From Prosopocoilus inquinatus (lineage: Eukaryota > Arthropoda > Insecta > Coleoptera > Lucanidae): a DNA stretch of 64,000 bases. The stretch is taken from the NCBI GenBank assembly GCA_036172665.1, contig CM069873.1, positions 40,270,001 to 40,334,000 of the forward strand, given 5' to 3'. This document shows positions 27,544 through 55,840 of the stretch, piece after piece. A program made the translations under genes and the position numbers. Each line of letters opens with the position of its first letter. The stretch's first letter is position 1. The notes beneath the pieces were generated by a model, which was not told where the DNA came from, did no database searches, and worked only from the letters and a program-made list of their open reading frames with translations.

Positions 27544-29328
27544 ATGGCTGAAGGACCCAGAACAAGGCTAAGGAGCAAAGATGACGAAAAAGTCGAGAAT
27601 TTAATAAAGGAAAAAAAGAAGCCAGAAATTCACGTAACATTAGATAAACACGCTTTTTTCCCACTAGCGAGGAGCACATTGACACCACGATCGCCGCCAG
27701 CAGGTCGCAAAAATTTACAAATAACATTAGGCAGCGAAGAAGACTTAACAATTTTGGAAGATAAAAATGACAAAACAAAGACACTAGAACAAACACCCGC
27801 GATTACCACGCCTAACAGAGGTCAGCAGACTCAAGTCAGTCCGAACCCACACCAATTTCGGACATTGAAACAAGTCTTACATCAAGAAAACCAGCGGCAA
27901 ATTCTAAATCACGGTCCAATACCCGATCCCCCCACTTGGCCAGAACGACTGAGCACAGAGACAACAATTAAACCGAAATCCTTAGCGGAATCGATAATGG
28001 AACAAAGAGAAAAAATACTGGAAACGCGCGTTGCGCCATCACCAGATGATACGTTCTTACGAAAAGGAGCAATTCCGAAACAAAATAATATCGTACAGAG
28101 GAAACAATTGGAACCTAATAACGGAAAATTGAAGCAAAACCCGGAAATCCACGAATTTAATTCGAAGGAACCTAACTGGACGAGTAGAAATAAATCAATT
28201 AGTATGTTTTATAACACACGTAAATCAGTGGCGCCAAAATTTTCGAAACCACCAGCTTTTAATCCGCAGGAAGATGATCCTATGACCTTCTTGAAAAAAT
28301 ATAAAGTTGTAGCCAAAATGAACGGTTGGGACGAATTGGAACAGCTGGGATATTTGGAAAATTCTTTGGAAGGTAGTGCACTTTCCTGGTTTGAAAATTT
28401 GATAAGAAATAATCCAGAGGCCGATTGGGATTGGACAATAAAAAAGTTTAAAGATAAATTTTTAGGTCCCAATTTCGAATTTAAATTGCAAGAAAAATTA
28501 ATTATTCGGAAACAACGAACAAACGAAAGCTTAACGGACTTTTTTTATTCATTTATAGAAATCTGTAACGATTATAATCCGAAAATGCCCGAAAGAGAAA
28601 TTCTACAACGCTTGATGGCGGGATTATTACCCTACTATAGACATATGGTATGCATAAAGTGTCCAACAAGTTTAAAAGATTTAGAACATTTTATGGACAC
28701 CATAGAAGAGACAGAAAAGGAAGGGAAGACAATTCTGCATAAGGACGTGGGGAAAAATCCCGAAGAAGAGAATCACGGCTATGACCTACGAAGATCGGAC
28801 ATAAGACAAGATCAGTCGGAAACAATGGGCATAATAAATAAATTAATCGACAAATTGACTGTTGACCGAAAAGAAGACGCCTTTAGAGATCGAAAGGGGG
28901 ATTCTATTTACTACAATGCCAGAAGAAAACTCGAGCATAAAAAATTTGGAGAGGATGACAAAAGGAATAATTTTCATTTGACAGGAATCAAAAACCAAAA
29001 GCATTATCAACGAACTTCAAACATCTTTAATTGCCAAATTTGTGGTTACGCTGGTCATATGGCCAGAAATTGTAGAAAATTGACTCCAAGAAGAGGATAT
29101 AACAATGACAACAATAAAGAAGCGAGATCAGTGAACGTCCCGACATGTCAATGGTGTAATACAAGAGGACACACAGCGTCAACATATAGAAAATTAATAG
29201 CAGGAAGGCAAATTCCCAATAATCCACTTAACAGAGAGGGGCAATGCGTAATTAAGAAAGGATACGATTATGGCAGAAAGATGAATAATAATTTAAATGG
29301 TACAGGACAGAGCACGAAAAGGCCCTGA
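27544..29328 (+). CDS. gag: Gag of element C
   Basis: Intact 594-aa reading frame from an ATG 56 bp after the truncated LTR. The N-terminus is basic and low-complexity with FFPLARSTLTPRSP, shared with the gag at 79-1858. The capsid-like domain lies around residues 230-390 (PPAFNPQEDDPMTFLKKYK to about IEETEKEG). There are two zinc knuckles near the C-terminus: CQICGYAGHMARNC is a complete CCHC, and CQWCNTRGHTASTY has lost its last cysteine. Gag forms the particle and binds RNA. The stop TGA at 29326-29328 lies inside the overlap with pol, which is in the -1 frame. Family identity is clear. Confidence 0.92.
   Translation: MAEGPRTRLRSKDDEKVENLIKEKKKPEIHVTLDKHAFFPLARSTLTPRSPPAGRKNLQITLGSEEDLTILEDKNDKTKTLEQTPAITTPNRGQQTQVSPNPHQFRTLKQVLHQENQRQILNHGPIPDPPTWPERLSTETTIKPKSLAESIMEQREKILETRVAPSPDDTFLRKGAIPKQNNIVQRKQLEPNNGKLKQNPEIHEFNSKEPNWTSRNKSISMFYNTRKSVAPKFSKPPAFNPQEDDPMTFLKKYKVVAKMNGWDELEQLGYLENSLEGSALSWFENLIRNNPEADWDWTIKKFKDKFLGPNFEFKLQEKLIIRKQRTNESLTDFFYSFIEICNDYNPKMPEREILQRLMAGLLPYYRHMVCIKCPTSLKDLEHFMDTIEETEKEGKTILHKDVGKNPEEENHGYDLRRSDIRQDQSETMGIINKLIDKLTVDRKEDAFRDRKGDSIYYNARRKLEHKKFGEDDKRNNFHLTGIKNQKHYQRTSNIFNCQICGYAGHMARNCRKLTPRRGYNNDNNKEARSVNVPTCQWCNTRGHTASTYRKLIAGRQIPNNPLNREGQCVIKKGYDYGRKMNNNLNGTGQSTKRP
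29292..29298 (+). promoter_or_regulatory. Predicted -1 frameshift site for gag-pol
   Basis: T-TTA-AAT, in phase with gag codons, is a canonical X-XXY-YYZ slippery heptamer. The pol frame is closed by TAA at 29289-29291 and opens exactly here. No ATG starts pol upstream of the protease, so slippage in this 37-nt overlap explains Gag-Pol synthesis. A downstream structure was not modelled. Confidence 0.75.
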
Positions 29329-32036
29329 ACTCTGTCCGGAATTATTTCCAAAAAGGGGCCTCAAGTGATAGTGGTTCGTGTAGTGAAATAAGGAAAAATA
29401 ATAATATTAAGTGTAATGTAATAACAATTCCAACAAATGACGCCAATATATTGACAACAACAGGTAGTCTTAATGGAAGAGATGTTAATATTATTGTGGA
29501 CACGGGAGCAGCATCTAACGTTATTACTAGACGTTTTGCAACCGATATATTACCATTGGAAAATTCGCCCGTTCTGAATACGATTAATAATAAAAAAGTT
29601 GTCCCTTTAGGAATGTCAAAAGTAACGGTTTCACTGAGGGGCAAAATTTTTTTGCTACAGGCACTAGTTGTGGAGAACCTGACAGCACCACTAATTTTAG
29701 GATGCCCTTTTCTTAAGGATTATGATGCCGAAATAAATTTTTCTTCCAAGGAAATTAAGTTGAATAACCTAGAAACGAGCGTTGAAACTAATTTAGAAAT
29801 ACGGCAACAAAATATTGATAGTATTAAAAGTCAAAATTCCCGAAGATTAGGACAGGGTTGGCTAAAAATACCTAAATGGACAAGTCAAAGGGTCTCGTAT
29901 GAGAATTTTAAAAATCAGGACACAACGAAATTTTCCACTGAAATCAAGTACGTGAAGACAGATTTATTTAATTTACCAAAGTCATTTAGTTTAGCTCATT
30001 GCGTACCAGCCGATCTAAGAATGTCTAAAGGTATTGCTAAGTTATTTAAAGCTAAATTTGATAACATCGAGCAACTTAAAAACCAGAGTCCAAATGTGGG
30101 AAATGTGGTTTACTTAAAATTAAAAGAGAGATTTGTTTTTTACTTAATAACAAAAAGACATTCGCAGGATAAACCAACTTTACAAAATATTTTTAATTCC
30201 CTCTTATCGTTAAAACAGCTGATGGTACAAAATAAACTCGAAAATTTAGGGATGCCAAAAATAGCTTGCGGAATGGATAAGCAAAAATGGAAAACTATAG
30301 AAAAAATGATACGTTACATCTTTCAGGGAACAGACATTAACATCAACATATGTGAACTGCCAGAACAAGATTATCAAAAATCAGCAACTACAGCTCATAA
30401 AAATAAAACAGCAGTGTCTTGGAACGAACTACCAGGAGAGGATATCGTAGATGAAATTGTACAAGATCAAATAATTAAAGTCAATATAGCGGAAGATGCA
30501 ATGATTGAAGGAGGAGAATCTAGAAGCTGTCAAATTAAATTTTCAGATAATGCAAACTTTGAAAAACCATTACTGTTTTGTACGTTTCATGCAAGAGGAC
30601 AATTTCTTCATAAAAATAAATTGGAGATAGCAGATGATTTTCGAGATTTTGGAAATAATAAAATTAACATCTCTAATTATGATAAAAACAGGAAACTAAT
30701 CAAGAAGGATACGGCATTGGGCTACATTGTGGTGGATAACAAAAATGAAATTGGAAAATTATTAGCAGAACAAAATAAGCTTTTAAATTTAAATGTAGTG
30801 ATGGAAGAAAAGTCGTCAAAAGTTTATAACATAAACAATCATCTGCAAGACGAAGAAAAGAAGAAATTAGAAAATTTATTACAGAAAAATTCAGACATTA
30901 TGGCATGGACAAACCTACTTCTCGGAAAAACAGATCGGGCAGAACACACGATCGATATTGGACAAAACAGCCCCGTCAAATCACGACCATACAGGGTAAG
31001 TATGAAGGAGCGGGATATCATTAAACAACAAATAGAAGAGATGTTGGAAGCCGGGATCATACGTCCTTCAGACAGCGAATTCGCTTCGCCCGTCGTGTTA
31101 GTAAAAAAACCGGATGGTACATTTAGATTCTGTGTTGATTACCGGAAACTGAATGCCATCACCACGAAGTCATCGTACCCCCTACCGCTGATAGATGATA
31201 TACTAAATTTTTTAGGAGGAAATAAATATTTTTCGACACTAGACTTAAACAGCGGTTATTGGCAATGTCCAGTTAAAGAAGAAGATCGGCATAAAACGGC
31301 ATTTACAACAAACGATGGGCTGTATGAGTTTAACCGCTTGAGCTTCGGACTGTGTAATGCACCAAGTACCTTCCAAAGGCTGACTGACTCAATATTTAAG
31401 GACTTAAAATGGAAGGAAGTGGCAATCTATTTAGACGATATCATCGTGGTAAGCAATACCATGGAGGAACACTTAGAACGTTTACAAAGAGTCTTCAATT
31501 GCATAAAAGGAGCAGGTCTTACTTTAAAACCTTCAAAGTGCTATTTTGGAATGCAGGAACTTAGAGTGTTAGGATTCAAGATTTCAACTAAAGGTATATT
31601 ACCAGACGATACAAAGATCCAAGCAGTAAGAAATTTCCCTACACCAAGAAAAATAAAAGAAGTTCAAAGTTTCTTAGGTTTATGTAATTTTTTCAGACGG
31701 TTTATTAAAAATTTTTCAATTATCGCCGGCCCGTTGTATAACATTATTGGGGCAAATTCAAAATTTGAATGGGGTCAAAACCAGAAAAAAGCTTTCGAAG
31801 CTCTAAAAGAAAAACTAACCAGTGCTCCCATCTTAGGACATTACAATCCTACGGCAGAAACCGAGCTACGAGTAGATGCGAGTGGAAACGGAATCGGAGC
31901 AGTTTTATTGCAAAAAGACGTGGTGTCACAAAAACTTCACCCTATTTCGTATATCTCAAGAACTCTTACCAAATACGAAAAAAGCTACCCCATAACAGAA
32001 TTAGAATGCCTAGCGGCAGTATGGTCGGTGGAATAA
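29292..32036 (+). CDS. pol: Pol part 1: protease, macrodomain, RT, RNase H (premature stop)
   Basis: Counting from 29451: aspartic protease with VDTGAASNVI around residue 17, macrodomain about 163-306, a linker, then RT with FRFCVDYRKLNAIT, YFSTLDLNSGYWQ, FGLCNAPSTF and the catalytic YLDD at 31428-31439, and the start of RNase H (RVDASGNGIGAVLLQ). TAA at 32034-32036 interrupts RNase H; the same frame stays open beyond it (HALCWLQTL, GGRLLRWSLKL) to the Polinton insertion at 32210. The frame is conserved across the Polinton, because the next codons after it continue the motif before integrase (DALSRYP). The polyprotein makes cDNA in the particle. The stop suggests a recent single-base change. 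The macrodomain insertion is the exceptional part. Confidence 0.9.
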   Translation, partial: FKWYRTEHEKALNSVRNYFQKGASSDSGSCSEIRKNNNIKCNVITIPTNDANILTTTGSLNGRDVNIIVDTGAASNVITRRFATDILPLENSPVLNTINNKKVVPLGMSKVTVSLRGKIFLLQALVVENLTAPLILGCPFLKDYDAEINFSSKEIKLNNLETSVETNLEIRQQNIDSIKSQNSRRLGQGWLKIPKWTSQRVSYENFKNQDTTKFSTEIKYVKTDLFNLPKSFSLAHCVPADLRMSKGIAKLFKAKFDNIEQLKNQSPNVGNVVYLKLKERFVFYLITKRHSQDKPTLQNIFNSLLSLKQLMVQNKLENLGMPKIACGMDKQKWKTIEKMIRYIFQGTDININICELPEQDYQKSATTAHKNKTAVSWNELPGEDIVDEIVQDQIIKVNIAEDAMIEGGESRSCQIKFSDNANFEKPLLFCTFHARGQFLHKNKLEIADDFRDFGNNKINISNYDKNRKLIKKDTALGYIVVDNKNEIGKLLAEQNKLLNLNVVMEEKSSKVYNINNHLQDEEKKKLENLLQKNSDIMAWTNLLLGKTDRAEHTIDIGQNSPVKSRPYRVSMKERDIIKQQIEEMLEAGIIRPSDSEFASPVVLVKKPDGTFRFCVDYRKLNAITTKSSYPLPLIDDILNFLGGNKYFSTLDLNSGYWQCPVKEEDRHKTAFTTNDGLYEFNRLSFGLCNAPSTFQRLTDSIFKDLKWKEVAIYLDDIIVVSNTMEEHLERLQRVFNCIKGAGLTLKPSKCYFGMQELRVLGFKISTKGILPDDTKIQAVRNFPTPRKIKEVQSFLGLCNFFRRFIKNFSIIAGPLYNIIGANSKFEWGQNQKKAFEALKEKLTSAPILGHYNPTAETELRVDASGNGIGAVLLQKDVVSQKLHPISYISRTLTKYEKSYPITELECLAAVWSVE
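29937..30368 (+). other. Macrodomain of TARG1/OARD1 type inside pol
   Basis: About 144 residues between protease and RT with the signature of the ALC1-like/TARG1 macrodomain group: HCVPADLRMSKGIAKLFK near the start, FYLITKRHSQDKPT in the middle, LGMPKIACGMDKQKW near the end. As I recall for human TARG1, a lysine in the LITK block and an aspartate in the CG-D block do the catalysis; both are present (Lys codon 30153-30155, Asp codon 30276-30278). Family members remove ADP-ribose from acidic residues or hydrolyse O-acetyl-ADP-ribose. It lies inside the pol frame with no stop, so it would be made as part of Gag-Pol. Function in the element is inferred. Confidence 0.85.
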
Positions 32037-32210
32037 TTTAGATCTTACTTGTGGGGATTGGACAGCTTTAACATAATTACAGATCACCACGCGTTGTGTT
32101 GGCTACAGACGTTAAAAACTCCCGGAGGTCGTCTACTGCGCTGGTCGTTGAAACTGATGGAATATTCATACAAAGTTTTCCATAAAAAAGGAACATCAAA
32201 CAAGGATGCG

Positions 32211-32358
32211 AGTAGTAGGAATAGGCCGATTCTGGAACCTCCTCCGACCTTGACCAATAAAGTTCAAGGTCAAGGTCGGAGGAGGTTCCAGAATCGGCCT
32301 ATTCCTGACGTGACCTCACCATGACCTTAAACTTCAAGGCCATGACCTTGAGGTGACC
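32211..32358 (+). repeat. Left Polinton TIR with internal 39-bp hairpin
   Basis: About 148 bp matching the inverted right end (51269-51416) with a few mismatches. Inside, 32217-32255 and 32268-32306 are perfect 39-bp inverted repeats around a 12-nt loop, so the last about 96 bp can fold on themselves. AGTAGT lies outside the hairpin. Confidence 0.93.
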
Positions 32359-32690
32359 TCGATCAAGGTCAAGATTAGAGGAGGTTCCAGAATCGACCTG
32401 TTCCTAACGTAACCGAGAGGAAACTTTGAAATGACCTTGAGGGTTCAAGGTTAAGATCGGAGGAGGTTCTAAAATTTGCTTTGTGCCGATGTAACTACAA
32501 GGTTAAGGATCAAGTCAGAGGAGGTTGCAAAATTTTCAATGTCATTGACGTGACCTCATCATTACCTCTAAAAGCGAGGTCAGAGGAGGGTTCCAAAAAT
32601 TATCTATCCTTGACGTGACCTTAACTTGACGGAGGATCCAAAAACGGTTTATCTTGAATATGACCGTAAGGTTGGAGGAGGTAGGGACCC
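32359..32690 (+). repeat. Degenerate subterminal repeats, left end
   Basis: Five or six diverged copies of the hairpin arm and its continuation, recognised by GGAGGAGGTTCCA-like cores at about 32382, 32458, 32517, 32583, 32631 and 32676, each followed by a variant of TTGACGTGACC. Unlike the right end, the short 11-bp array is nearly absent. Confidence 0.75.
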
Positions 32691-32706
32691 CCACCTAAAA
32701 TCTTGT

Positions 32707-32740
32707 TATATAAGGTTCTTCATTTGGGAATAGATTCAGT
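32707..32740 (+). promoter_or_regulatory. TATA plus TCAGT initiator promoter
   Basis: TATATAAGG at 32707-32715 and TTCAGTTG with the A at 32738, a spacing of 31 bp. This is the classical arthropod core promoter layout. It precedes a short first exon (about 32738-32796) of the next gene. Confidence 0.75.
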
Positions 32741-32795
32741 TGTTACAGAACTGTGAGTTGTGTTGTTAAGTTAATCACCTACCTACATACATAAA

Positions 32796-33481
32796 AGTAA
32801 GTTTAAGTCATCTTATTGTAATAATTTATAATTTGTATATTTTTATTGTATTTAACAGTGACATCTAAACAAGTGGATTTTTTCCTGAAGCAAAAGAGAA
32901 GGCACGTGAACGATCCTTTTGATGACGTACAGAAGAAAAGACTTCTGACTGAAAACGTTGACAAACCAAAAGAAGAAAAGCCGGATGAGCACGGTTTGAA
33001 TATGCCCTCAGTTCGAAACGAGTTTCAATTTGAAATACTCTCCCAGCCTTACTTCACAGATGAAGATTTTCGTCAATGTGATACTAATGAGACAGCACCT
33101 TCCGAGATTTCAGAAGCAAGAGAGGTGACTGACGTAGATCAGTTGCCACTTTTAGCTCAAAGTGTATATTTTCTAAATAAGAGCCGTACGAAGTGGATTT
33201 GTGTCGGACTGTGTACCGAAACATTTTTTGATCCGATAATACGTATTATGGGTTCCAAAAGGCAGAGCATATCGTTTTTAGAAGAGGAATGGAAAGAATT
33301 TTGTTCTTATAACTACACTTTGAAGTCGTATTTTACTGAGAAGAAAACTATTTATCCGGTAATGAAAATCAGCTCAGTAAAGGCGTCTTTCGAACGCATC
33401 GAAGGAACGAAAATACTGAAATTAGAAAGAGGAGTGGAGACATTATATATATCTTATAAAGGTCTATTGGAACTTGTGTGA
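32796..33481 (+). CDS. Polinton protein of unknown function, split start codon
   Basis: A good intron (GTAAGT at 32797, TTTAACAG ending at 32858) joins A32796 to TG32859-32860, making an ATG in phase with the downstream frame; no other ATG exists before residue about 50. The protein is about 207 aa after splicing, acidic and basic in its first half, then a compact region (KWICVGLCTETFFDPIIRIM, then ISFLEEEWKEFCSY). The second half slightly recalls PC4-like DNA-binding proteins, a weak impression only. It ends at TGA 33479-33481, and a second open frame (33474-33707) follows in the +1 frame. I do not recognise the family. Confidence 0.6.
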
Positions 33482-33707
33482 TATTGTATTATATCGTTTA
33501 GAAGTTTTGAAACAATTGAACTATAAATCATTCTACAGCAACATGATTCCATGCTTGAGTGTTATGGAAAGTGATATGAAGACAAATGTTAAATCATTTC
33601 TCAATAATGAAATATCTGAGAAAGGAGCAATTACAAATGAATTAATGATGTTTGGAATTAGTAAATTAATTTTTGATATAAGTATGCATAAAGCTGTTAA
33701 TATGTAA
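33474..33707 (+). CDS. Small ORF in +1 frame after the previous gene
   Basis: About 77 codons without an ATG at the overlap (first internal ATG about 33543). It reads CDIVLYRLEVLKQLNY, then two helical-looking stretches. It may be the C-terminal part of the preceding protein, reached by a +1 shift, by an indel, or by an intron I do not see. No motif recognised. AATAAA follows at 33760. Confidence 0.4.
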   Translation: MCDIVLYRLEVLKQLNYKSFYSNMIPCLSVMESDMKTNVKSFLNNEISEKGAITNELMMFGISKLIFDISMHKAVNM

Positions 33708-33845
33708 ATGTTATGTGATTTAATATGTATATATTTCTAGATATGACACTGTCAGTTATAAATAAAATTTTCTAAGAACACTGTTTGACCCTTTATTTAA
33801 TAAACTAACGATACTTAACCAAAAAATTAAGAGAAATTTTTACGC

Positions 33846-33860
33846 TATATAAAGATAAGC
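33846..33860 (+). promoter_or_regulatory. TATA box upstream of PLA2-domain gene
   Basis: TATATAAAG at 33846-33854, about 70 bp before the ATG at 33920. A clear TCAGT initiator is not seen; transcription would start near 33875. Confidence 0.5.
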
Positions 33861-33919
33861 AGTGAGTATTGAAGTAGTACACATGTAACATCGTTGACTG
33901 TTAGAAAGAAAAGCCATAA

Positions 33920-34741
33920 ATGCGACGTCGTGTCAAAACAGATTACACTACGAGAAGCACCTTAAAACGAAAAGGTCGTGGTTTACTTAATACGTTAATT
34001 AATAAACTACCAGTAGAGTTACACTTACCAGGTTACAATTACTGCGGTCCGGGCACAAAATTAGACGTTCGACTTAAAAGAGGAGACAGAGGTGTGAATG
34101 CGTTGGATGAGGCTTGCAAGCAACACGATATCGCATATTCTGTAAGTAGCGATTTAGAAAAACGTCACGAAGCAGATAAAAAATTGTATCAAGCGGCAGT
34201 GAAAAGAGTGAAGAGTACAGAAGCGGGATTTGGTGAAAAAGCATCTGCGTTATCTGTAGCCGCCTTAATGAAAGCTAATACAAAGCTTGGAATGGGAAAC
34301 GGAGTGAAGAGAAAGCGTAGTAAAAGGAAGAAGCGTGGTGGTAAATTATCATTTCGACAAGCTGTAAGGAAAGCACAACATGCAATTTCACGTAATGGTA
34401 ACAAGAGTCTGTTAGAAAATGTGAAATTGGCGCAGGCTGTTTTAAAGAAGGACCACAAGAAAATAAGACCTCCACGTCAAAGAGTGATACCAATTCCTAA
34501 GAGAGGAGGGTTTTTACCTTTAATTCCATTATTTGCGGCTTTGGGCGCAATAGGATCGCTCGGCGGCGGTGCAGCTGCAATTGCTAAGGCGGTAAACGAT
34601 GCAAAAGCTGCGAAAGAGCAACTGAAAGAGGCAGAGCGACATAATCGCGCTATGGAAACAAAAGCAGTGGGAAGCGGATTCTATATAAAACCTTACAAAA
34701 CAGGGTGTGGGTTATATTTACGATCCAATCCAAAAAACTGA
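33920..34741 (+). CDS. PLA2-domain capsid-associated protein
   Basis: 273 aa. Residues about 30-90 resemble the phospholipase A2 domain of parvovirus VP1: HLPGYNYCGPGTKLD with the calcium-loop-like GPGT at 43-46, then ACKQHDIAY with the His-Asp pair at 69-70, and a further Asp at 86. A very basic stretch follows (KRKRSKRKKRGGK, about 129-141), then a glycine-rich hydrophobic segment (about 196-226), a coiled-coil-like stretch, and a C-terminal aromatic GSGFYIKPYKTGCGLYL. In parvoviruses this activity opens endosomal membranes; a similar role here is inferred. I recall PLA2-like proteins being described in adintoviruses. The gene ends at AAAAAACTGA, a predicted frameshift point into the protease. 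Confidence 0.8.
   Translation: MRRRVKTDYTTRSTLKRKGRGLLNTLINKLPVELHLPGYNYCGPGTKLDVRLKRGDRGVNALDEACKQHDIAYSVSSDLEKRHEADKKLYQAAVKRVKSTEAGFGEKASALSVAALMKANTKLGMGNGVKRKRSKRKKRGGKLSFRQAVRKAQHAISRNGNKSLLENVKLAQAVLKKDHKKIRPPRQRVIPIPKRGGFLPLIPLFAALGAIGSLGGGAAAIAKAVNDAKAAKEQLKEAERHNRAMETKAVGSGFYIKPYKTGCGLYLRSNPKN
34732..34738 (+). promoter_or_regulatory. Predicted -1 frameshift site, PLA2 protein to protease
   Basis: A-AAA-AAC in phase with the upstream gene, directly followed by its stop TGA (34739-34741). Slippage by -1 enters the protease frame at CTG 34738. The heptamer is among the most efficient known slippery sequences. The protease frame has no ATG before its conserved N-terminal region. Confidence 0.7.
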
Positions 34742-35112
34742 AATATTTGCCTCGGCGACCGTTGACTAACATTGACATACTGAAATATGCTAAAATATGG
34801 AAATTACCTTTCTTTCGAGGTGTGTTTATGAGAGATACTTTACCTAAAAAGATATGGAAGCATGAAAGTGGAGTAGTGAATTTAGATAGCGATTCTGGTG
34901 AAGGAACGCATTGGGTGGCATATTATAAGAGAGGAGGAATCGTAAAATATTTTGACAGCTATGGAGATCTACGACCTCCAGTTGAAGTAGAGAAATATCT
35001 TTTGTCGAACGGATTGGGAGTTATTAACTATAATTATGAAAGGTATCAGAAACAAAATACACAAAATTGTGGACACTTATGTCTACAGTTTTTAAAGTCC
35101 TTTACAAGTTAA
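34738..35112 (+). CDS. Adenain-like cysteine protease (PRO)
   Basis: The frame is open from about 34705, giving 135 codons. Catalytic residues, numbered from 34705, are His69 (GTHWVAYY), Asp84 (YFDSYGD), Gln115 and Cys122 (QNCGHLC), the order of adenovirus protease/ULP1-type peptidases. The N-terminal region LTNIDILKYAK and FRGVFMRDTLP is conserved in Polintons as I recall, and lies before the first ATG (about 34830), so initiation there would lose it. This supports synthesis as a -1 frameshift extension of the upstream protein. The protease matures capsid precursors. Alternatives: a lost start codon or a non-AUG start such as TTG at 34762. Confidence 0.88.
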   Translation: MKYLPRRPLTNIDILKYAKIWKLPFFRGVFMRDTLPKKIWKHESGVVNLDSDSGEGTHWVAYYKRGGIVKYFDSYGDLRPPVEVEKYLLSNGLGVINYNYERYQKQNTQNCGHLCLQFLKSFTS

Positions 35113-35134
35113 GTAAGAATGTAGTACTTGAAAG

Positions 35135-35869
35135 ATGGTCAACATGGAATCTTCACCCGTTGCGTGTACATTCACTCTTACGGGAACTGAATCAGTTTTA
35201 TTTTGTGAATTGAATCCACCACTATACCTCGATGAAGAGGCAACATATGAAATGTGCTTGTTAAATTTTGAAACGTTTAATGCAATACCTAACATAGATG
35301 AAAGTAATAATTTGATACATTATGAAGAAACAGGAAAAACGACGGTTTGGAAAACTATCGTTATACCTACAGGTACATATGAACTAGACGATATCAACCA
35401 ATATCTGAAAGATTATTTTCAAAATAACAATATCCCTGATTATATAAACATTAAAGGAAATAATAATACTTTAAAGGCAACCATACACAGTTCGGTTAAG
35501 CTCGATTTTAGTAAACCAAATTCATTGGGAAAATTGTTGGGTTTTAAACCGCGAACGTTGAAAGTAAACGATAATAACATTGGTGATTTTCCGGTGGAAA
35601 TAAATAAAGTAAATGCTATAAGAATAGAATGTAATCTAACCGGTGGATCTTATAACAACGGAGAACCCGGTCATGTTTTGTATCATTTCTTTCCAAATGT
35701 ACCTCCAGGGTTTAAAATAATAGAATCCCCTCTTCAAGCTATTTATCTTCCAGTGACCGTGAATGTGATTACGAGAATAGTCATTCGACTATTAGATCAA
35801 GAGAATCGATTAGTAAATTTTAGAAACGAAGTAATTACTCTAAGACTTCATTTGAGAAGATTCACATAA
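35135..35869 (+). CDS. Minor capsid protein (penton-like, single jelly roll)
   Basis: Intact 244-aa frame, ATG 22 bp after the protease stop. Predominantly beta-type sequence, with CTFTLTGTESVLFCELNPPLYL at the start and the conserved Polinton penton-like middle (GTYELDDINQYLKDYF; NSLGKLLGF). It ends in alternating hydrophobic strands (ITRIVIRLLD, EVITLRLHLRRF). In Polintons this protein occupies the vertices. Its place between protease and major capsid gene agrees. Assignment is by pattern and position. Confidence 0.8.
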   Translation: MVNMESSPVACTFTLTGTESVLFCELNPPLYLDEEATYEMCLLNFETFNAIPNIDESNNLIHYEETGKTTVWKTIVIPTGTYELDDINQYLKDYFQNNNIPDYINIKGNNNTLKATIHSSVKLDFSKPNSLGKLLGFKPRTLKVNDNNIGDFPVEINKVNAIRIECNLTGGSYNNGEPGHVLYHFFPNVPPGFKIIESPLQAIYLPVTVNVITRIVIRLLDQENRLVNFRNEVITLRLHLRRFT

Positions 35870-36129
35870 TGATTATTTACGATAGCAATTATTCGAAACG
35901 GAAAGAGTGTAGCAGAATTAGACGTAATGTATTATTTAAACCACGGAAACAGATACTGAACTGTTGTCGACAAAAAAAACTGAAATTGACACAGAGAAAT
36001 CGAATATATTTAGAGAGTTTAGGTTATAAGGTGCTAACATAGGGGGAATTATTCTGTAGAAGAAACGTAACCGTCAAAGGGTGAACACCATCATTACACG
36101 TAAGGCAATCATCATCTAAACAGAACGAC

Positions 36130-46352: not shown

Positions 46353-46463
46353 TAAATATTTATTAACTACAACTGTAAACATACAATACTCACAATACAC
46401 AATAAATGAATTTTACAAATTAATTTATTTACTTTCTAACAGAACTTATAGATAAAACATACT

Positions 46464-49400
46464 TTATTTATTTTCTAATTCTTTTTCCAGTTTTTCAATT
46501 AGTTCTTTTAGTGTTTTATCTCTTTCTATATCAGCAATTTTATGGTGACCCCACGCCAGAGTATGAATTTTGTCATCCAAAATATAACGTTTATCGTCTT
46601 TAGATGATAAGGCAATTTTATTTTTCAACTCTGTATACACCGTATGAAAATCTGAGTGAAACACGTACATCTTTTTAAAAATAAAACCATCTCGTTCAAT
46701 GATTTCTTTGTAGTCATCTACAGATAAGTATTTATCTATAACGTATTTTTTAACACCTTTTGCTTTCTTAGTACATTTTGAAATAAGCTTTACACAGTAG
46801 GCTTTCGCACCGGTCCCGATAAAAGATTCTATAACCTGTCCTGCGTATTCGTCTTTAAATCGTCCAATAACTGATTCAGTTCGAGGCATTTCATGTACAT
46901 TATTCGGTGGGTAATTTGAAGTATCAAATTTATCTAAATTTTGCTTTATGTCATCGTATACATTATCAGTATTAACGGTCAGTATTAAACTATCCGTATC
47001 AGTATATAATAAAGCTGCTCTATTGTTATATTTTCGCTTTATAAAATTGTAATAAAAATCGTACATTACTGTTTTTGATATTTCCAAAACACAAAACCCT
47101 ACGTATAAAGGTTTATTATAATTTACTTGTACTTTGCATAATTCTATTGCGGCCAGGTGATCACTAAAAATTTTACTCGATTTATAGTTTGGTTTAGCTA
47201 TCAATGATTCAGCTCCCGGTCTTCGATTATGGGTTTCCCAGCTGGTGGCCAATTTAATGTCGACGCGATTCTCAACATTTTCCATAGTTTTACCGAAAAC
47301 ACTATTATTTAATAATTTGTAAAAATTTTTTTCGAATTCGTTTTTAGCTTCAGCTCGTTTTTGTGAATTAAAGTCTATGTATATTTTTAGCCAACGAGAT
47401 TGCTTAAATTTAATTGCCCTATGAATTTGGTTTAATATTAAACCATTTTCCAAACATTGTTTCAGATTTAAATAGTGAATTATGTATTTCCTTTTGTTGT
47501 ACAGATTTGGAATAAGTTTACCATATTTCGAATTTGGAGGAATTATGTTTTCCGGACAAAATGGTAATTCGTTGTGGTTGTCATGTAAATGAGTCGGGTA
47601 TTCCAAATCTACTTCGAATATGTACCCGACATCTGAATTTTCTTCTAACTCTGAAATGTTAAGATTGTTAATCTCTTCTGTACACAACCAAGTAAATTCT
47701 CCCCACGGAAATCTGGAACACATTGCGTGACCGTACAGATTTGTAGCATCAAGATATAGTAAATATTTAGTTGCCTTCTTAGAGTCAAAACCATGCACAA
47801 ATTTATTATTAGCGTTTTCGATTCTTTTAGTGCACATACTCACTCCACCGCGTATACCCATTCTAAAAAAATGTAGCATATCAACATCTTGCAGTAACTC
47901 TAATTTAATTTTTGTCATTCTTAACATTGCATCCCAACTTAATCCTGGAGCGGTGAAAAAATGGCAAGGATCTAGTTTGTAATTATCAATACAAAGGTCT
48001 CTGAAATTTTCAAATACGTCTGCCAACAGTAAAACATCAGATGTTACGTATACATCACTGTAATCACCCATAGTTTTACAGTTAAATAAATTCCAAACGC
48101 GCTGTGCTCTCTCATAATCTTCATCACTTACGTGTTCATCATACAGCACATCATAAAAATCTTTCTTAGAAGGTAAAGTGGCAAAATCTAATTTCATGAG
48201 TGAGTCAATAAAACAATACGGGAAAATTCCTTTTTGACGTATTAATTTAAACATCTCCTCATCGTTAAAATATTTTCTAATTTCCCTACATTGCCAATCT
48301 TCCAAGTATGAACTTAATTTCTCTAAAGACGATTGCATGAAACGAAAAGAATCTACAAATCTTATTTTGAAATATACTTTACGCTTTTTACCTTTACAGT
48401 CTGTCTTATCCCCCACGTGTATTAATTTCGAAAAGGATATATATTTTTCCTTATTTTGTGCGATCACGTCCACATCTTCACCTTCTAATGCCATTGTCTT
48501 TACAAACAAGTGACTGTCATAATTAGAAAGATTATGAAAAAACACTGGAATAAATTTTGGTATTTTAAAATTAATGTTGCACACAGAGTGAGCAGCACCT
48601 CTAAACGCTCCCGATAAATGTTCGTGATCACGCACCTTCTCCTTAACATCTAATATTGGTTTTTCACAAATATGACACATTGTTGCACGGTCGTATGCCT
48701 CTTTTTCTTCTCGTGTTAAATCAGTCATCGGCTCAATTTTACTTAAATATTTATCGTAAATTTCTTTAATATCTTTTTCTAACCATTTTATAAACTCAGT
48801 GGCGGCATTCTCTCCGCGATATAACTTTAACATTGACAAATTAGCATTGAAACTGCACTTAATGTAATATGCAAATGAATGAGGTTCGTGTTCATAACAC
48901 TTAACAGTGAAAGATTTATCTGGATTTGGTTCTACTCTGTCCAGTGGTTTTAGCAATGCTTCGAAATCGGCATATATAACAAAAGGAAGTTTTAACTGTT
49001 TTTCAAAATTTTCAAATTGTAATATATTCTCTGGCAAAGATTCACCATACTTATTTATTTTTAACTCTGTCGATGGTAAAACTGTTTTGATAACTTTACA
49101 GTCTTCCCTCTCGTGTCGTTGCAATTTTTCAATACATGGAAAATACACTAAACATCCTTCACAAATATATTTCTCGTGACCGTGATGTGAAGTCTGTTTT
49201 GACACTAAACGTGATAAATTTTTAATCCAACAATAGTGAGTATTTCCGTTGTTGTCATCAATTAATAATAAGTTTATATGAATATTTTTTCTATTTTTAG
49301 TAAAATGTAACGGTCCTACAACTTCATCAACCGTAACCTTACCATTATAATGGGAACCGAGTCCGTAGACATTTATAGAAATATTGTTCTTGCTTTCAAA

Positions 49401-50317
49401 TTTCTTCACGTCACAAACTTTCAGTGGAAATTCTAGGTCAGTGAAATCCGCTACTGTGTTATAATGGGGATACGAAGACATCCTTTGAGGAAGACCTGTC
49501 GGTTGACACATCGCTGACGTTATCGCCCAGGCAAAGCAAGCGTTGTCGTTATTTCTGACATTTATGACAGCTTTCTTCGCACTTATTGAAGACGGTAATG
49601 GCATGAAGCTGGATGCTTTCAGTGGATTGTATTTATTAATGTTGACTTCCATATATAAAATTCTGCACAAAGTCCATCCTGTAACAATATTTGCAACTTT
49701 AAGTTTTATTCTAAACGATTGCACCTATTATTTGTTTTACCTGAATCTCTCTCCTGAAATTCCGACATTTTTACATGTATTTCGTTTACAAAATCACGAT
49801 ATATATTGTATATATCAGTTCCAAAACAAGTTATTTTATTCTTGGTGTTAAAAGATTTTATCTCAGAACTTTCTTTAGAATCTAAGAAATATACTCCGAA
49901 AATTTCCACATTCCACTTTAATGCTTTATGGATGTCTAATATACTTTGAACCAAAGTTAGTACTTTTTCTTGAATATTGTACATAAAATCCTCGACATCG
50001 ACATAATTGTAAGGTTCCGTTATACGGTACGTTACGATTTTATCTCCGAATGCACCAGCTATCTTCTCCACGCCGTTATCGACGACCACAAAAGCATTAC
50101 TTTTATGTGAATTACTACGCAAATGTGCTGAGAAACACTTTCTGCTGACGTATATTTCACACACATCACATTTCATAACGTTCACCTGGTCAACAACTTT
50201 GGACGGTCCGGCAATTTCATCTAATTTCAAACGTTTTCCCTGGCATGACGTACGCAAATGACGATTCATATTATCGATTCGCGTAAATTGTTTGCCACAC
50301 TGATTGCAATCAAACAT
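46464..50317 (-). CDS. Protein-primed DNA polymerase B, one intron
   Basis: Exons 50317-49741 and 49678-46464 with a 62-bp intron (AG|GTAAAAC, TTACAG|GA) total 3792 nt, 1263 aa. The split restores a continuous conserved block (SGWTLCRILYMEVNINKY). N-terminus: C2H2 finger FDCNQCGKQFTRIDNMNRH and a second CDVCEIYV...HLRSNSH. Exonuclease motifs YADFEAL (about 428-434), HNLSNYDSH (about 574-582) and TSDVLLLADVF (about 738-748). A Cys/His cluster CHICEK...RDHEHL lies between. Polymerase motifs LDATNLYG (about 835), NNSVFGKTMEN (about 983-993) and YTDTDSL (about 1084-1090). It replicates the element from a protein primer. Convergent with integrase; no stop or shift once spliced. Confidence 0.95.
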
Positions 50318-50509
50318 GTTTTATAATTTTAATAAGCACTATCACGTTCACTACGTTCAATAAGTTGGTAAACTCAATCTGAGGGTCAACCGTCGTCTGC
50401 GGATATCAAATTAAACACCTCCTTAAATAGGTACATATTCAATAACAGGTTGCGTCAGGGTTATTTCAAAACAATTACATTTGAGTCACCGCGCTTCAAG
50501 GTCCGTTAC

Positions 50510-51290
50510 GAGGTCACCTCAGTCATTTCAAGGTCGCCTCAAGGTCACCCCAAGGTCATTTAAAGGTCACCTCAGAGTCATTTCAAGGTCATTTCAAGGT
50601 CACCTCGAGGTCATTTCAAGGTCATCTTGGGGTCATTTCAAGGTTATTTCAAGGTCACCTCAAGGTCATTTCAAGGTCACCTCAAGGTCATTTCAAGGTC
50701 ACCTCAAGGTTATTTCAAGGTCACCTCAAGGTCATTTCAAGGTCACCTCAAGGTTATTTCAAGGTCACCTCAAGGTCATTTCAAGGTCACCTCAAGGTCA
50801 TTCCAACGTCACCTCAGGGTCATTTCAAGGTCATTTCAAGGTCATTTCAAGGTCATTTCAAGGTCATTTCAAGGTCACCTCAAGGTCATCTCAAGGTCAT
50901 CTCAAGGTCATCTCAAGGTCACCTCAAGGTCATTTCAAGGTAATTTCAAGGTCATCTCAAGGTCATTTCAAGGTCATTTCAAGGTCACCTCAAGGTCATT
51001 TCAAGGTCACCTCAAGGTCATTTCAAGGTCATCTCAAGGTCACCTCAAGGTCATTTCAAGGTCACCTCAAGGTCATTTCAAGGTCACCTCAAGGTCATTT
51101 CAAGGTCACCTCAAGGTCATTTCAAGGTCACCACAAGGTCATCTCAAGGTCACCACAAGGTCATTTCAAGGTCACCTCAAGGTCATTTCAAGGTCACCTC
51201 AAGGTCATTTCAAGGTCACCTCAAGTTCACCTCACGGTCATTTCAAGGTCACCTCAAGGTCATTTCAAGGTCACCTCAAGGTCATGACCT
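50510..51290 (+). repeat. 11-bp tandem array (TCAAGGTCAYY) at right Polinton end
   Basis: About 0.8 kb of AAGGTCACCTC and AAGGTCATTTC units, roughly 65-70 copies, mostly alternating. Every frame stays open because the unit has no stop, so the long frames found here (HFKVTSRSFQG type) are artefacts. The unit contains TCAAGGTCA. It borders the TIR; the left end has only traces (near 32325-32360). Confidence 0.95.
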
Positions 51291-51416
51291 TGACCTTGAA
51301 GCTCATGGTGGGGTCACGTCAGGAATAGGCCGATTCTGGAACCTCCTCCGACCTTGACCTTGAATTTTATTGGTCAAGGTCGGAGGAGGTTCCAGAATCG
51401 GCCTATTCCTACTACT
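51269..51416 (-). repeat. Right Polinton TIR with internal 39-bp hairpin
   Basis: Inverted copy of 32211-32358. Hairpin arms 51321-51359 and 51372-51410, perfect, with a 12-nt loop at 51360-51371 differing by one base from the left loop. Confidence 0.93.
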
Positions 51417-52964
51417 GATGCGGATGCACTCTCGAGGTACCCTTGTACTCTAGGAACCACAGAAGATGAGAAGGAAGCACAAAATGTTCCAACATTCATT
51501 GCAAGTGCAACAGATCTGGAAAAGTGGCAAAGGAAAGATTCACGTTTACAAGAGATAAAAAAGGCAGTAGAAAATCCTGAATATGGAGGGCCAGCAATCC
51601 AAAGAGCAGCAAAAAATTATGAACTGGTTAATGAGGTTTTGTATAAGAAGGACCCGTCATCCATAACTGACGCAAAACTATTAGTTATCCCGCAAAATTT
51701 AAAAGAAGAGATTATGACAAATTTCCATCGGGATCCCATAAGCGGCCACTTAGGATTGACTAAAACTCTAGATAAGATCAGAAAAAGATATTTCTGGGAA
51801 GGAATGAAACAAGATATCACAAAATTTATTAGGGGTTGCCCAGAATGCCAAATTCGGAAGGGACCAACAAATCGGAAACCTGCAGGATTACTGAAACCCA
51901 TTACAACGGAAACGCCTTTCGCCATGGTAGGAATTGATCTTTTAGGCCCATTTCCACGAAGTTCAGCCGGAGCAAAATTCATAGTTGTAGCAACGGATTA
52001 TGCTACACGTTGGGCTGAAGCTAAGGCTCTGCCAAGTGGAAAAGCTGAACCCGTAGCAAAATTTATAGTAGAGCAGCTCATTTGCAGACACGGATCACCA
52101 AAAAGAATTTTAAGTGATCGCGGAGCAGTGTTTCTATCCAATTTAGTTACAGAAATTTTAAAATTATTATTAAGTGATAGTTTATTTACAACTGCGTACA
52201 AACCCTCAACGAATGGACTAACGGAGCGATTAAATAAAACAATAGCCGACATGATTAGTAAATATACGACTAATTCCCAAAAGGATTGGGATGTTTTCCT
52301 GCCACATTGCATATTTGCTTACAATACATCACGGCAAGAGGCCACTAAGCATAGTCCATTTTCGTTGGTATATGGTCGCGAACCAGTTCTTCCAACCGAT
52401 GCGGAACTTAGCCAACCAATGTCTACAGAATTTACACTCAGAAGTCAACAAGTGATACGTGAGACACGGGAAATCGCCAAAAGAAACATCGAAAGGAAAC
52501 AGGAAAACGACAAAGAAATCTATAATAAAAAGCACAGGTATGTCAGCTTTAACGTGGGCGACAAAGTGAAATTAAGAAATTTTGTCAGAAAAGTAGGAAA
52601 ATGTGAAAAGTTGTTACCAAAATACTTCGGCCCGTTCGTCATAATTGAAAAAAGGAATGATTTGAACTATGTAATTTCAACAGATTCCGGAAAAAATAGC
52701 AAACAGGATGTGGTACATGTTTCAAGATTAGCACCTTTTTATGAACAATGGAAAGAAGATGGTCCCCAAGATACTTTTAAGAGAGCCAAGTGTTTCTACA
52801 AGAGCCGAAAACATGACAACTCAAAAGAAAATATGGAGAACACGGGCTTTAAACCAATTCAAGTAAATGAAATAAAAAGGTTTAAAAAACACGGGAAATA
52901 CGTGTTACCTAAATTCGGTTGTAAGCTGTCTCGCGCATATAGAAGAAGTAACACACTTTTGTAG
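51417..52964 (+). CDS. pol: Pol part 2: integrase of element C
   Basis: The frame continues from pol part 1 across the Polinton target site (DALSRYP). Zinc-binding N-domain (HRDPISGHLG...CPECQIRK), catalytic blocks VGIDLLGPF, ILSDRGAVF and NGLTERLNK giving D, D, E, and a GPY/F-type C-domain (LLPKYFGPFVIIEKRNDLNYVIS). About 515 residues. The last about 29 codons (52876-52964) overlap the USP frame and probably are not native: the USP block in frame +1 is conserved, this stretch is not. Integrates the cDNA with 4-bp duplications. No internal stop. Confidence 0.9.
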   Translation, partial: DADALSRYPCTLGTTEDEKEAQNVPTFIASATDLEKWQRKDSRLQEIKKAVENPEYGGPAIQRAAKNYELVNEVLYKKDPSSITDAKLLVIPQNLKEEIMTNFHRDPISGHLGLTKTLDKIRKRYFWEGMKQDITKFIRGCPECQIRKGPTNRKPAGLLKPITTETPFAMVGIDLLGPFPRSSAGAKFIVVATDYATRWAEAKALPSGKAEPVAKFIVEQLICRHGSPKRILSDRGAVFLSNLVTEILKLLLSDSLFTTAYKPSTNGLTERLNKTIADMISKYTTNSQKDWDVFLPHCIFAYNTSRQEATKHSPFSLVYGREPVLPTDAELSQPMSTEFTLRSQQVIRETREIAKRNIERKQENDKEIYNKKHRYVSFNVGDKVKLRNFVRKVGKCEKLLPKYFGPFVIIEKRNDLNYVISTDSGKNSKQDVVHVSRLAPFYEQWKEDGPQDTFKRAKCFYKSRKHDNSKENMENTGFKPIQVNEIKRFKKHGKYVLPKFGCKLSRAYRRSNTLL

Positions 52965-53799
52965 GCAATATTCACCGAGAAATAATAAAGAAAACGTAAA
53001 TTTTTTAGAAAATTTTGTACAAACAATTAATGATTTAACCAATAATTCTAAGAAGAAAGTAGTATCAATATCAAGATTAAAAAATAAACTAGAAGCGGTA
53101 AATCCCTTATTTAAAGGGAAAGGGCAACAGGACGCCCACGAGTGTCTGTTTTATATTCTACAGATCCTCCACGAAGAAGCAAAACAAGTTGAAAATCGAA
53201 ACAGTGAAAAATCATTTATATCAGACATTTTTGCGGGCGCATACGATTTAATGGCGGAATGTTTAGAATGTGGAAATCAGTCCATCACCAAAAGTCCAGG
53301 ATGGGGCATTTCACTTTCCATAGATAAACATAGAGACACCCGCTTGGAGACTTGTTTGGATAATTACTTCGGAGAAGAGATTCTTTCGGAAGATAATCGG
53401 CCTATTTGTTGGTCTTGCCGTAAAAGAACCAACACTAGAAAATATACAAAAATTGTGGAATTGCCGGAGTACCTGGTGCTACATTTCAACAGTTACTATT
53501 GGTCGGGTCAAGAGACTGAGAAATTACATAAAAGTGTAAAATTTCCATTAACTGATTTAAATGTAGGAACATTCTATAAAAATGTTGAAAGTAAAAATAC
53601 AAGGTATAATTTACAGGGGGCAATTGAACACGTAGGAAGTGCGAATGAAGGACATTACATAAGTTACATTACAGGCAAGAATTCACAAGGAATTGACACC
53701 TGGGTGAAATGTAATGATGATGTAGTAACTAAAATAGACTCAAAAGAACTTTTAGAAAAAAATATGTACATACTTTTTTATAAGCGAGAAAACCATTAG
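52876..53799 (+). CDS. Ubiquitin-specific protease (USP) domain in element C
   Basis: 307 codons with no stop and no ATG near the start; TAA at 52873-52875 closes the frame upstream. Cys box GLKNTGNTCYLNS with the nucleophile at 52903-52905; GQQDAHECLFYILQILHEE (QDAHE box) at about 53122-53178; zinc-finger-like CLECGNQ...CWSCRKR; YLVLHFNSYYW; His box EGHYISY with the His at 53653-53655; WVKCNDD with the Asn/Asp. All catalytic boxes of the USP/UCH family (peptidase C19) are there, in a compact form about 300 aa long. The frame is +1 to integrase. Removing one base in the A-run at 52874-52878 would fuse the two, so either an indel broke a pol-USP fusion or a +1 shift is programmed at AAA-AGG. 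Substrates unknown. Confidence 0.88.
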   Translation, partial: KGLKNTGNTCYLNSVVSCLAHIEEVTHFCRQYSPRNNKENVNFLENFVQTINDLTNNSKKKVVSISRLKNKLEAVNPLFKGKGQQDAHECLFYILQILHEEAKQVENRNSEKSFISDIFAGAYDLMAECLECGNQSITKSPGWGISLSIDKHRDTRLETCLDNYFGEEILSEDNRPICWSCRKRTNTRKYTKIVELPEYLVLHFNSYYWSGQETEKLHKSVKFPLTDLNVGTFYKNVESKNTRYNLQGAIEHVGSANEGHYISYITGKNSQGIDTWVKCNDDVVTKIDSKELLEKNMYILFYKRENH

Positions 53800-54007: not shown

Positions 54008-55840
54008 ATGTGGCCACAAAATTTAGCAGCATGTATTTTATATCTGCTAATAACGGAAAATGCGAGAGGCGAATTGGATCAAAAATACGAGATAAAATCC
54101 ATGGATGGGACGTCAGGAATGGTATACGAGGATCTAGGTAAATTCTATATAACGGATTCCTTCTGGAATTTGTTAACTTTCATAGACTTAGATAAATTTG
54201 AAGAAAAATTTGTGCAGATCATTAATCCTTTTAAAGATACTGAAAAAATATGTAATGATAAAACATTAAAAGCGTCTGATTTATGCGGAAATTACTTAAA
54301 TATAATAAATGCAACAATTAATCGCGTAAAATGGGAAAAAGATATGATTCCAAATTTATTAGGGCATAATTTGGTAAAACGAGGATATTTTGACGCAATT
54401 GGAAAAATTTCTAAGACTTTATTCGGTACTCTAACGACTGATGATGCAGAAAGATTTGAAAAGATGATAAATGAAGTTGAAGCTGACCAGGACACTTTGT
54501 CTAAAGTTATGAAAAATCAAACAATAATAGTAATGTCAACATTAGATACACTAAATAATACATTAGGCCATATTGAGCATAATGAAAAACTGATTTCCCA
54601 GAGTTACAATTCGATAAAAAATATTTTAGGTAAAACTGCAACGGAAGTGGATTTCTTGTATAGAATAGACAGGCATTTGTAAGATCATATATCGATACTA
54701 ACGACAATTATTGAGCAGTATAAATTAGAGGTAATAAATTTAATAAATATTATTGTTTCGGCAAAGCAGGGAATATTTCATCCATTATTTATCTCTCCAA
54801 CAACCCTATTAGAAAATTTGAAGTCCATAATCACATTTATACCGGCAGGGGTTAAATTCCCTACAAATATTGATAACCCAAATGCAATAGAAGCCTTATT
54901 TAAAATTAGTAAATTAAGTATATTTTTCAAAAATTCAAAGTTATATGGAGTAGTCAGAATACCGTTAGTCCAAATTAAGCCGTTTACATTCTACAAATTA
55001 ATTTCTATCCCTGTGAGATTGCATAAGAATATATTTGTAGTAATTAATCTTTCATACGCATACCTTGCAATAAATGAAATAAGATCAGAATTCGTCCTGT
55101 TGGACAAAGATGAAATGTTAACAATTATTTCTCTACAAGATCAGGTGTATATTTCACTTAAAGAAAAAACTTTAATTACTACAAACAAAAATATTTGTGA
55201 GATACAATTATTGTCATATAAAAAATCAATTCCAGATATTTGCGAGCGGCACGTGTTAACTATTAACCACATTTATTTTATGGAGTCTGTATTAGCAAAT
55301 TCGTGGATGTTTGTAACCCCAAATGCAGAATCGTTAACATTAACTTGCACCGGTCAAGGTGGCAACAACACAATTAAATATATAAATTTAAACGGCACCG
55401 GTAAACTTTATTTGGCAACAGGATGTAAGGCATTCTCTGAAAATGTAATACTGAAGGCAATACAAACGAAAGAATTCGAATTATTTCAACATATACCTTC
55501 TTTAAACATGAAAGATTTTAATGAGAAAGGGAATAATTTGACGTCACCATTAATCGAAGATCTAAAAATATTAGATTTAGAAAAATTAGAAAAAGTAATG
55601 AACATTAATGAATCTCTGATAAATAAACGCCAAAAGCTAGAATCAGTTCTAAACGATATTAATAATATCCAAATAAAACATAAACACAAACTAAAAGAAA
55701 ATTATGAATCGATTATATTATACTGTGTAACAATAACTATTATTATAAGTATAGGCACATATTGTTTTAAAAAAAGATTAGGAACGTGTAATCGAAAAAA
55801 ACCAGAAAAGGAGAGAAAATATCCTTATGAAGGAGTATGA
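54008..55840 (+). pseudogene. env: Envelope gene (baculovirus F-like), one premature stop
   Basis: One frame from ATG 54008 to 55840, interrupted only by TAA at 54680-54682. A hydrophobic signal-peptide-like N-terminus (residues 1-21) is followed by a dibasic KR at 124-125, after which GYFDAIGKISKTLFG resembles the fusion-peptide region of F-type proteins. A long helical region, then a Cys-containing ectodomain, a single membrane anchor at about 55705-55765 (ILYCVTITIIISIGTYCF) and a basic tail. This is the layout of errantivirus env proteins related to baculovirus F. A splice acceptor TTTTTATTTTTAG at about 53984 could serve a subgenomic env mRNA. The stop truncates the protein before its anchor. 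Confidence 0.85.

Follow-up and report, generated by a model that had tools for sequence, protein, structure and literature searches.

A gypsy-type retroelement family of Prosopocoilus inquinatus with a TARG1-like macrodomain and a ubiquitin-specific protease in Pol

Organization of the element in the window

Annotation of a 64,000-nucleotide stretch of the Prosopocoilus inquinatus genome (contig CM069873.1, positions 40,270,001 to 40,334,000, hereafter the window) revealed a Ty3/gypsy-type long terminal repeat (LTR) element on the + strand, spanning window positions 27258-57028 from LTR to LTR, with a TARG1-like macrodomain and a ubiquitin-specific protease (USP) encoded along its pol region. 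The gag gene, the LTR pair, and the order protease-reverse transcriptase (RT)-RNase H-integrase place it among Ty3/gypsy (Metaviridae-like) elements, while the two frames downstream of pol, both matching PF12259, correspond to an env of the baculovirus F type. The features of the element are the following.

27258..27487, +, 5' LTR of about 230 bp, starting with TGTCACG, 98.7% identical to 56799-57028
27544..29328, +, gag open reading frame (ORF), 594 aa (Retrotrans_gag, 4.9e-10)
29292..29298, +, putative -1 slippery heptamer TTTAAAT, first bases of the pol frame, in the gag/pol overlap
29460..29717, +, aspartyl protease domain of pol (gag-asp_proteas, 2.6e-7)
29934..30353, +, TARG1/OARD1-like macrodomain, in pol between protease and RT (PDB 4j5r, 1.9e-37; fold match 4j5s)
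31101..31583, +, reverse transcriptase (RVT_1, 9e-35)
31770..32210, +, left part of RNase H, carrying an in-frame stop (32034-32036) and truncated at 32210, where the insert begins
32211..51416, no strand assigned, Polinton/Maverick insert of 19.2 kb, not retroelement sequence, recognized by its terminal inverted repeats, target-site duplication and gene set
51417..52964, +, remaining pol: RNase H-integrase linker and integrase (H2C2, rve, SH3-like)
52876..53796, +, USP (C19 ubiquitin-specific protease), 307 codons without a stop (UCH, 1e-26; USP2, 7.5e-43)
54008..54682, +, env part 1 (Baculo_F, PF12259, 4.1e-10)
54818..55840, +, env part 2 (Baculo_F, PF12259, 8.1e-19), separated from part 1
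56799..57028, +, 3' LTR of the pair, with a purine-rich tract just before it

The gag and pol frames overlap by 37 nt, and the pol frame starts exactly at TTTAAAT (29292), a heptamer of the form commonly seen at -1 frameshift sites. Pfam matches on the window place the protease, RT, and RNase H in a pol frame at 29451-32036 and the integrase in a frame at 51354-52964. No target-site duplication was recognized by eye at the LTR ends and no primer site was assigned. Scans of the window with Rfam and for tRNAs gave no matches.

The insert interrupts pol between RNase H and integrase, leaving the macrodomain on its left and the USP on its right. The two pol flanks align separately to neighboring residues of one Popillia japonica protein (P0010, residues 276-332 and 332-827), indicating that pol was continuous until the insertion. 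An in-frame stop within RNase H, a USP frame that is out of register with the integrase, and the split env together mark the window copy as dead; in a relative (locus L074), the env frame is open over 630 aa. The original prediction of an env-bearing element carrying both a macrodomain and a USP is thus borne out, both domains lying on the + strand of the same LTR element with matches well above chance. The extent proposed for it, 29292..55840, does not hold, as most of that span (32211-51416) is inserted Polinton and the element itself runs from 27258 to 57028.

Identity of the macrodomain and the USP

Human TARG1/OARD1 structures match the macrodomain of the window at about 2e-37 over 140 residues. 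A fold search with its predicted model (mean pLDDT of 77.5) places it nearest to TARG1 within the ALC1-like macrodomains, with 4j5s at 1.1e-16 and a TMt of 0.95; ranks 1-8 are all TARG1 entries (42-45% identity), followed by DarG (17-20%). The Pfam Macro model gives a sub-threshold match (16.3 bits for a cut-off of 22), and the sole NCBIfam match, to DarG (2.6e-9, 36.8 bits), is far under its cut-off of 250. The residues aligned with Lys84 and residue 125 of TARG1 are K (30153-30155) and D (30276-30278), an assignment for which we take the chain numbering to be shifted by 6. The solved TARG1 sequence in the alignment has Asp at the second position, which PMC7050489 prints as Glu125.

The USP frame at 52876-53796 covers the whole catalytic domain, with intact Cys and His boxes (Cys at 52903-52905, His at 53653-53655). 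A UCH domain with a Cys, His, Asp/Asn triad assigns it to peptidase family C19. The closest solved relative is USP2 (7.5e-43), and USP2 is also matched in Foldseek (5.5e-29) by the predicted model (pLDDT of 78.5). The Pfam UCH/USP match covers 53251-53799, and an ORF called from the first ATG (53251) is shorter than the domain because this ATG lies past the Cys box. A six-frame search of the window at an E-value of 0.01 found no further macrodomain or USP.

Uninterrupted copies in the genome

The survey covered the assembly from which the window is taken (649.6 Mb in 173 contigs) together with a few proteins of other species. The USP query returned 64 matches in the genome, 26 of them at 97-100% identity. 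Seventeen of these 26 close copies carry the macrodomain together with the USP in a single uninterrupted frame of 1764 codons, and the macrodomain query led to the same 17 loci. By our arithmetic, 1764 codons agrees with the length in the window that starts at the slippery heptamer and closes with the USP, less the insert, so that Pol in these copies can be read as protease-macrodomain-RT-RNase H-integrase-USP. The window holds a dead, Polinton-interrupted copy of a gypsy-type family with this Pol. The two domains had been proposed to lie in or next to pol, and in the 17 intact-frame copies both are parts of Pol; their never occurring together in intact copies, the finding that would have undone the proposal, is not what is seen.

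Among 22 copies of the macrodomain piece, including that of the window, nucleotide differences have a median of 0.22%, and the window copy differs by about 0.9% from the rest. In four of the eight loci examined (L005-L008), the env frame stays open for at least 445 codons, as far as the fetched piece extends. Three full-frame copies stand in tandem with a spacing of 11,482 bp (G000:C5:47386738-47414354); given this trio at C5:47.39-47.41 Mb and a duplicate locus at C5:31.03 Mb, the close copies are not all independent.

Distribution of the two domains among relatives

The RT query yielded 151 reported matches (the best 150 of 3705 first-look candidates were scored), of which the 77 listed at 62% identity or more were paired by coordinates with macrodomain and USP matches, leaving out those listed at 56% or less. 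A domain was assigned to an RT locus when it lay on the same strand, up to 9 kb upstream for a macrodomain (at least 46% identity) and up to 8 kb downstream for a USP; 23 kb downstream was allowed for the group with 100% RT identity because of the Polinton. Two loci with an RT identity of 81% were placed by hand in the 74-81% group, because their frames and macrodomains are of that family. Since the best candidates alone were scored, the absences are lower bounds. The distribution is as follows.

RT 98-100%: 27 loci, 25 with both domains, 1 macrodomain only, 1 USP only
RT 86-92%: 9 loci, 6 with both, 3 USP only
RT 81-83%: 7 loci, 5 with both, 1 USP only, 1 with neither
Sister group, RT 74-81%: 25 loci, 18 macrodomain only, 7 with neither, 0 with a USP
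Outgroup, RT 62-64%: 9 loci, 0 with a macrodomain, 0 with a USP

In the clade of the window (RT 81-100%), the USP is thus present in 41 of 43 loci. The family-wide survey that had been suggested as a check recovers, for this genome, the pair in 36 of the 43. A further 93 listed macrodomain matches (38-45% identity) fell outside the pairing; they lie at least 9.0 kb from all 22 RT loci without a paired macrodomain, and more than 150 kb away in all cases but one. Eighteen of the 64 USP matches have no listed RT; among these eighteen, some (L045, L104, L105, L107) have an integrase directly upstream, and one (L149) is a host USP38-like gene.

The longest frames reach 1205 codons in loci with neither domain, 1430 with the macrodomain only, and 1764 with both. 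In the macrodomain-only family, the env frame starts 127 nt beyond the aligned end of the integrase (one locus, L074), which leaves no space for a USP. The gap between protease and RT measures 682 nt in the RT 62-64% group, compared to 1273 nt in the window, and the pieces of that group gave no macrodomain or USP match, as expected of an empty slot (two of its nine loci were examined for both). In the integrase tree, which includes database matches, the USP-bearing families group in a single clade (98/98), to which the macrodomain-only family with env is sister (94/92), and the Popillia proteins branch below, one of them (P0019) with a partial macrodomain in the same slot.

The tree and the distributions indicate that the macrodomain was acquired before the USP, which on the present sampling entered this clade a single time. 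For this genome, the data support a gain of the macrodomain in the protease-RT slot followed by a gain of the USP after the integrase in one subclade, and both domains were probably kept after these steps. The same data led us to reject the idea of a joint machine, which had been part of the original prediction: as the macrodomain and the USP differ in distribution, they need not form one joint system.

Sequence constraint and rates of change

Alignment of 56 macrodomain sequences showed that the K and D residues are both kept in 55, the exception being L123, with N in place of D. This set comprises 54 of 60 genomic pieces that were long enough (that of the window and 21 near-identical family members among them; six shorter ones were dropped), together with Harmonia axyridis P0002 and Frankliniella P0003. 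All 10 of the USP sequences compared, drawn from four lineages, retain the C/H/D triad; one of these sequences has an internal stop. Among 1431 macrodomain pairs, 278 were usable (synonymous divergence, dS, of 0.05-2), with ratios of nonsynonymous to synonymous divergence (dN/dS) that are all at or below 0.56 (median 0.26). For the USP, 99 of 171 pairs were usable, with a median of 0.35 and a maximum of 0.46.

Between the A and B lineages, dN is 0.37 for the USP, 0.24 for the macrodomain, and 0.10 for the integrase. Over the between-lineage pairs listed, the USP has about 2.6-4.8 times and the macrodomain about 1.5-2.8 times the dN of the integrase, figures that compare rates and do not test selection, because the integrase dS is saturated. 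Within single elements, identities to the window for RT, macrodomain, and USP are 90%, 64%, and 49% at C2:39.59M, 89%, 55%, and 44% at C5:52.24M, and 83%, 47%, and 31% at C1:33.32M.

Macrodomains and USPs in other elements and species

The macrodomain query gave 1303 first-look candidates in the genome, of which the best 150 were scored. TARG1-like macrodomains occupy three pol slots across several gypsy lineages of this genome: besides the protease-RT slot, which is also used in more distant families (L086, L089), they occur in the RNase H-integrase interval (L085, L090) and downstream of the integrase (L087, L088, L091). The RT of these other-slot or distant families is 44-54% identical to that of the window. 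In the macrodomain tree, which is unrooted relative to host OARD1 and in which the sole outside row, P0003 from Frankliniella, has a long branch, post-integrase macrodomains accompanied by a CCCH finger group with Harmonia axyridis P0002 in a well-supported clade (100/98). An integrase-macrodomain-CCCH zinc finger fusion (L088, L091, P0002) is common to this genome and Harmonia axyridis. Two further arrangements were observed. At L080:1880-3067, a macrodomain-bearing gypsy-type element is followed by a frame for a fusion glycoprotein of Monjiviricetes (mononegavirus) type (PF24664, 1e-123), an env class other than the baculovirus F type, and at L077:2339-2914 a KH-domain ORF lies downstream of a macrodomain-bearing pol.

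In the protein database, the macrodomain region had two matches and the USP six, none of the latter with retroelement domains. The integrase had 399 matches; among the 120 listed, P0019 alone matches the macrodomain and none the USP. Searches of viral contigs gave one weak locus for the macrodomain (L001, 32% over 59 residues) and no match for the USP.

The nested Polinton and other features of the window

The insert was assigned to the Polinton/Maverick group from its terminal inverted repeats of 152 nt (32211-32362 and 51265-51416, 95% identical), a 6-bp target-site duplication (GATGCG at 32205-32210 and 51417-51422), and the following genes, among which are a capsid, a packaging ATPase, and an integrase.

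36130-37350, double-jelly-roll (DJR) capsid (1.5e-103)
42937-43647, A32-like ATPase
45408-46352, rve integrase
46464-50317, -, minus-strand ORFs

No Pfam match was obtained for a DNA polymerase; a minus-strand ORF of 1086 aa has just a sub-threshold match to Endonuclease_7, and one of 203 aa only zinc fingers. The Polinton also carries a PLA2-like ORF (33920-34741) and, near its right end, an 11/22-bp tandem array (about 50412-51400). A second locus, G000:C5:31034600-31062900 (L137-L140), has LTR flanks and Polinton junctions 100% identical to those of the window, and is either a segmental duplication or an assembly duplicate. Its macrodomain-to-USP distance is 2815 bp shorter, so the length of its insert differs from that in the window.

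Elsewhere in the window, a gag at the left edge, 79-1446 (-), is probably from a relative that has a macrodomain but no USP, its macrodomain and RT being located a short way beyond the window (G000:C5:40267618-40269416, -). Positions 4304-5815 and 7796-10037 hold, besides a hAT transposase, another gypsy-type pol, which is decayed and has no macrodomain or USP matches.

Proposed role and alternative explanations

The reading that we favor, with somewhat better than even confidence, is that two predicted erasers, gained stepwise and kept with their catalytic residues, act separately on host marks that limit the element. Both domains would be made within Gag-Pol by -1 frameshifting and packaged at Pol stoichiometry, packaging with Gag-Pol being what one would expect from the anatomy, since both lie within Pol in the intact-frame copies. 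The element's own protease would then free them to act in newly entered cells and during assembly. The macrodomain may strip mono-ADP-ribose that host PARPs attach to element proteins or to RNA/cDNA ends. The USP may strip ubiquitin from element proteins, sparing Gag, Pol, and integrase the proteasome, or alternatively deubiquitinate host immune signaling proteins. They would thus be two separate erasers of host marks and not one joint machine. This reading draws on activities reported in the literature: TARG1-type enzymes are reported to remove mono-ADP-ribose at acidic residues and nucleic-acid ends (PMC7050489, PMC8053099), viral macrodomains counter PARP-based control, and Drosophila USP2 deubiquitinates Imd (PMC4140012). 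As judged from sequence, the active sites kept in many copies suggest use against host control, and a counter-defence role is plausible.

Its main rival, which we regard as unlikely on balance, is that the enzymes serve the element's own replication, the macrodomain clearing ADP-ribose from cDNA/RNA ends or steering integration through ADP-ribosylated chromatin, and the USP setting the half-life of Gag, Pol, or integrase. The position of the macrodomain next to the integrase, before or after it, in other families, the USP following the integrase in the families where both were examined, and the below-cut-off DarG match, DarG being a DNA ADP-ribosyl glycohydrolase, are all consistent with such a role. 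However, the faster change of both domains than of the integrase between lineages is less expected for a purely internal job, and the elements of the RT 62-64% outgroup, whose frames reach 1205 codons, manage without either. It is improbable that the macrodomain is a reader tethering Pol to ADP-ribosylated chromatin or proteins, with hydrolysis incidental, and that the USP mainly binds ubiquitin: although the ALC1-like class is said to include readers and erasers (PMC7050489), the two residues on which hydrolysis depends are retained in all but one of the macrodomain sequences, and the USP triad in every sequence compared.

Retroelements do acquire host sequence, and the window copy and most divergent copies are broken, as would be expected if host exons had been picked up by recombination and persisted without function. 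This passenger capture is nonetheless already disfavored, and we hold it to be very improbable, given the conserved catalytic residues (55/56 and 10/10), the macrodomain dN/dS ceiling of 0.56 in 278 of 278 usable pairs, the 17 uninterrupted frames, and the retention of the domains in lineages where identity has fallen to 47% for the macrodomain and 31% for the USP. The 19.2 kb insert between the two domains in the window could also have suggested that they come from different elements or host genes joined by the Polinton insertion. This artefact is refuted, with next to no probability left to it, by the 17 insert-free copies that hold both domains in one frame and by the pol flanks on the two sides of the insert, which align to neighboring residues of a single Popillia protein.

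Several observations weigh against the favored reading of two kept erasers. The domains are separable, with the macrodomain alone in 19 and the USP alone in 5 of the 77 loci, and loci with neither domain occur once in the clade of the window and seven times in the sister group. Their co-residence in one frame is limited to the close family of the window, the other copies with both domains being degraded, and the survey is of a single genome. The USP pairs listed have dS values of at least 1.45, near saturation, the integrase dS is saturated, and copies within one family are not independent, so that the selection test is weak for the divergent USP and the integrase. In comparisons of near-identical C/D-type copies, where the values are very small, the USP does not regularly outpace the integrase (for example, dN of 0.017 vs 0.024), and fast change could mean loose constraint instead of conflict.

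A broader statement, that beetle retroelements repeatedly armed Pol with a TARG1-like hydrolase in three slots and that one env-bearing clade added a USP, Pol thereby bringing two erasers of host marks into the cell, is offered more tentatively, somewhat short of an even chance. If true, host ADP-ribosylation of retroelement proteins or of cDNA/RNA would be a standing insect defence and the enzymes a counter-measure. That a predicted ADP-ribose hydrolase has been placed in Pol repeatedly suggests that ADP-ribosylation exerts pressure on the retroelements of insects. The empty-slot, macrodomain-only, and macrodomain-plus-USP relatives within one genome form a natural series. Among the matches listed from the open-licence literature, none describes a Pol, whether of a retroelement or of a retrovirus, that carries a TARG1-type macrodomain or combines a macrodomain with a USP.

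Comparison with known systems

The element shares gag, pol, a baculovirus-F-like env, a putative -1 frameshift signal, and LTRs with insect errantiviruses and other env-bearing Ty3/gypsy elements; it differs, in a comparison made with no reference errantivirus, by the extra enzymes between protease and RT and after the integrase. Harmonia axyridis LOC123686668 (P0002) and Popillia japonica P0019 likewise have a TARG1-like macrodomain in a gypsy-type Pol. However, in P0002 it follows the integrase and is accompanied by a CCCH finger, P0019 is a predicted protein with a partial macrodomain, and a USP is seen in neither.

Coronaviruses and alphaviruses are RNA viruses without reverse transcription. 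They too have a virus-borne macrodomain, which is reported to remove ADP-ribose and to counter host PARPs, but the fold match of alphavirus macrodomains to that of the element is at just 9-12% identity. Compared to USP2/USP21-type proteases, the USP of the element has the full C19 domain with Cys, His, and Asp, but is compact and fused behind a retroelement integrase. The closest likeness of the macrodomain is to the ALC1-like hydrolase TARG1/OARD1 (C6orf130), with which the whole domain aligns and whose Lys84/125 partners are kept, while here the domain is part of a retroelement Pol, in several lineages.

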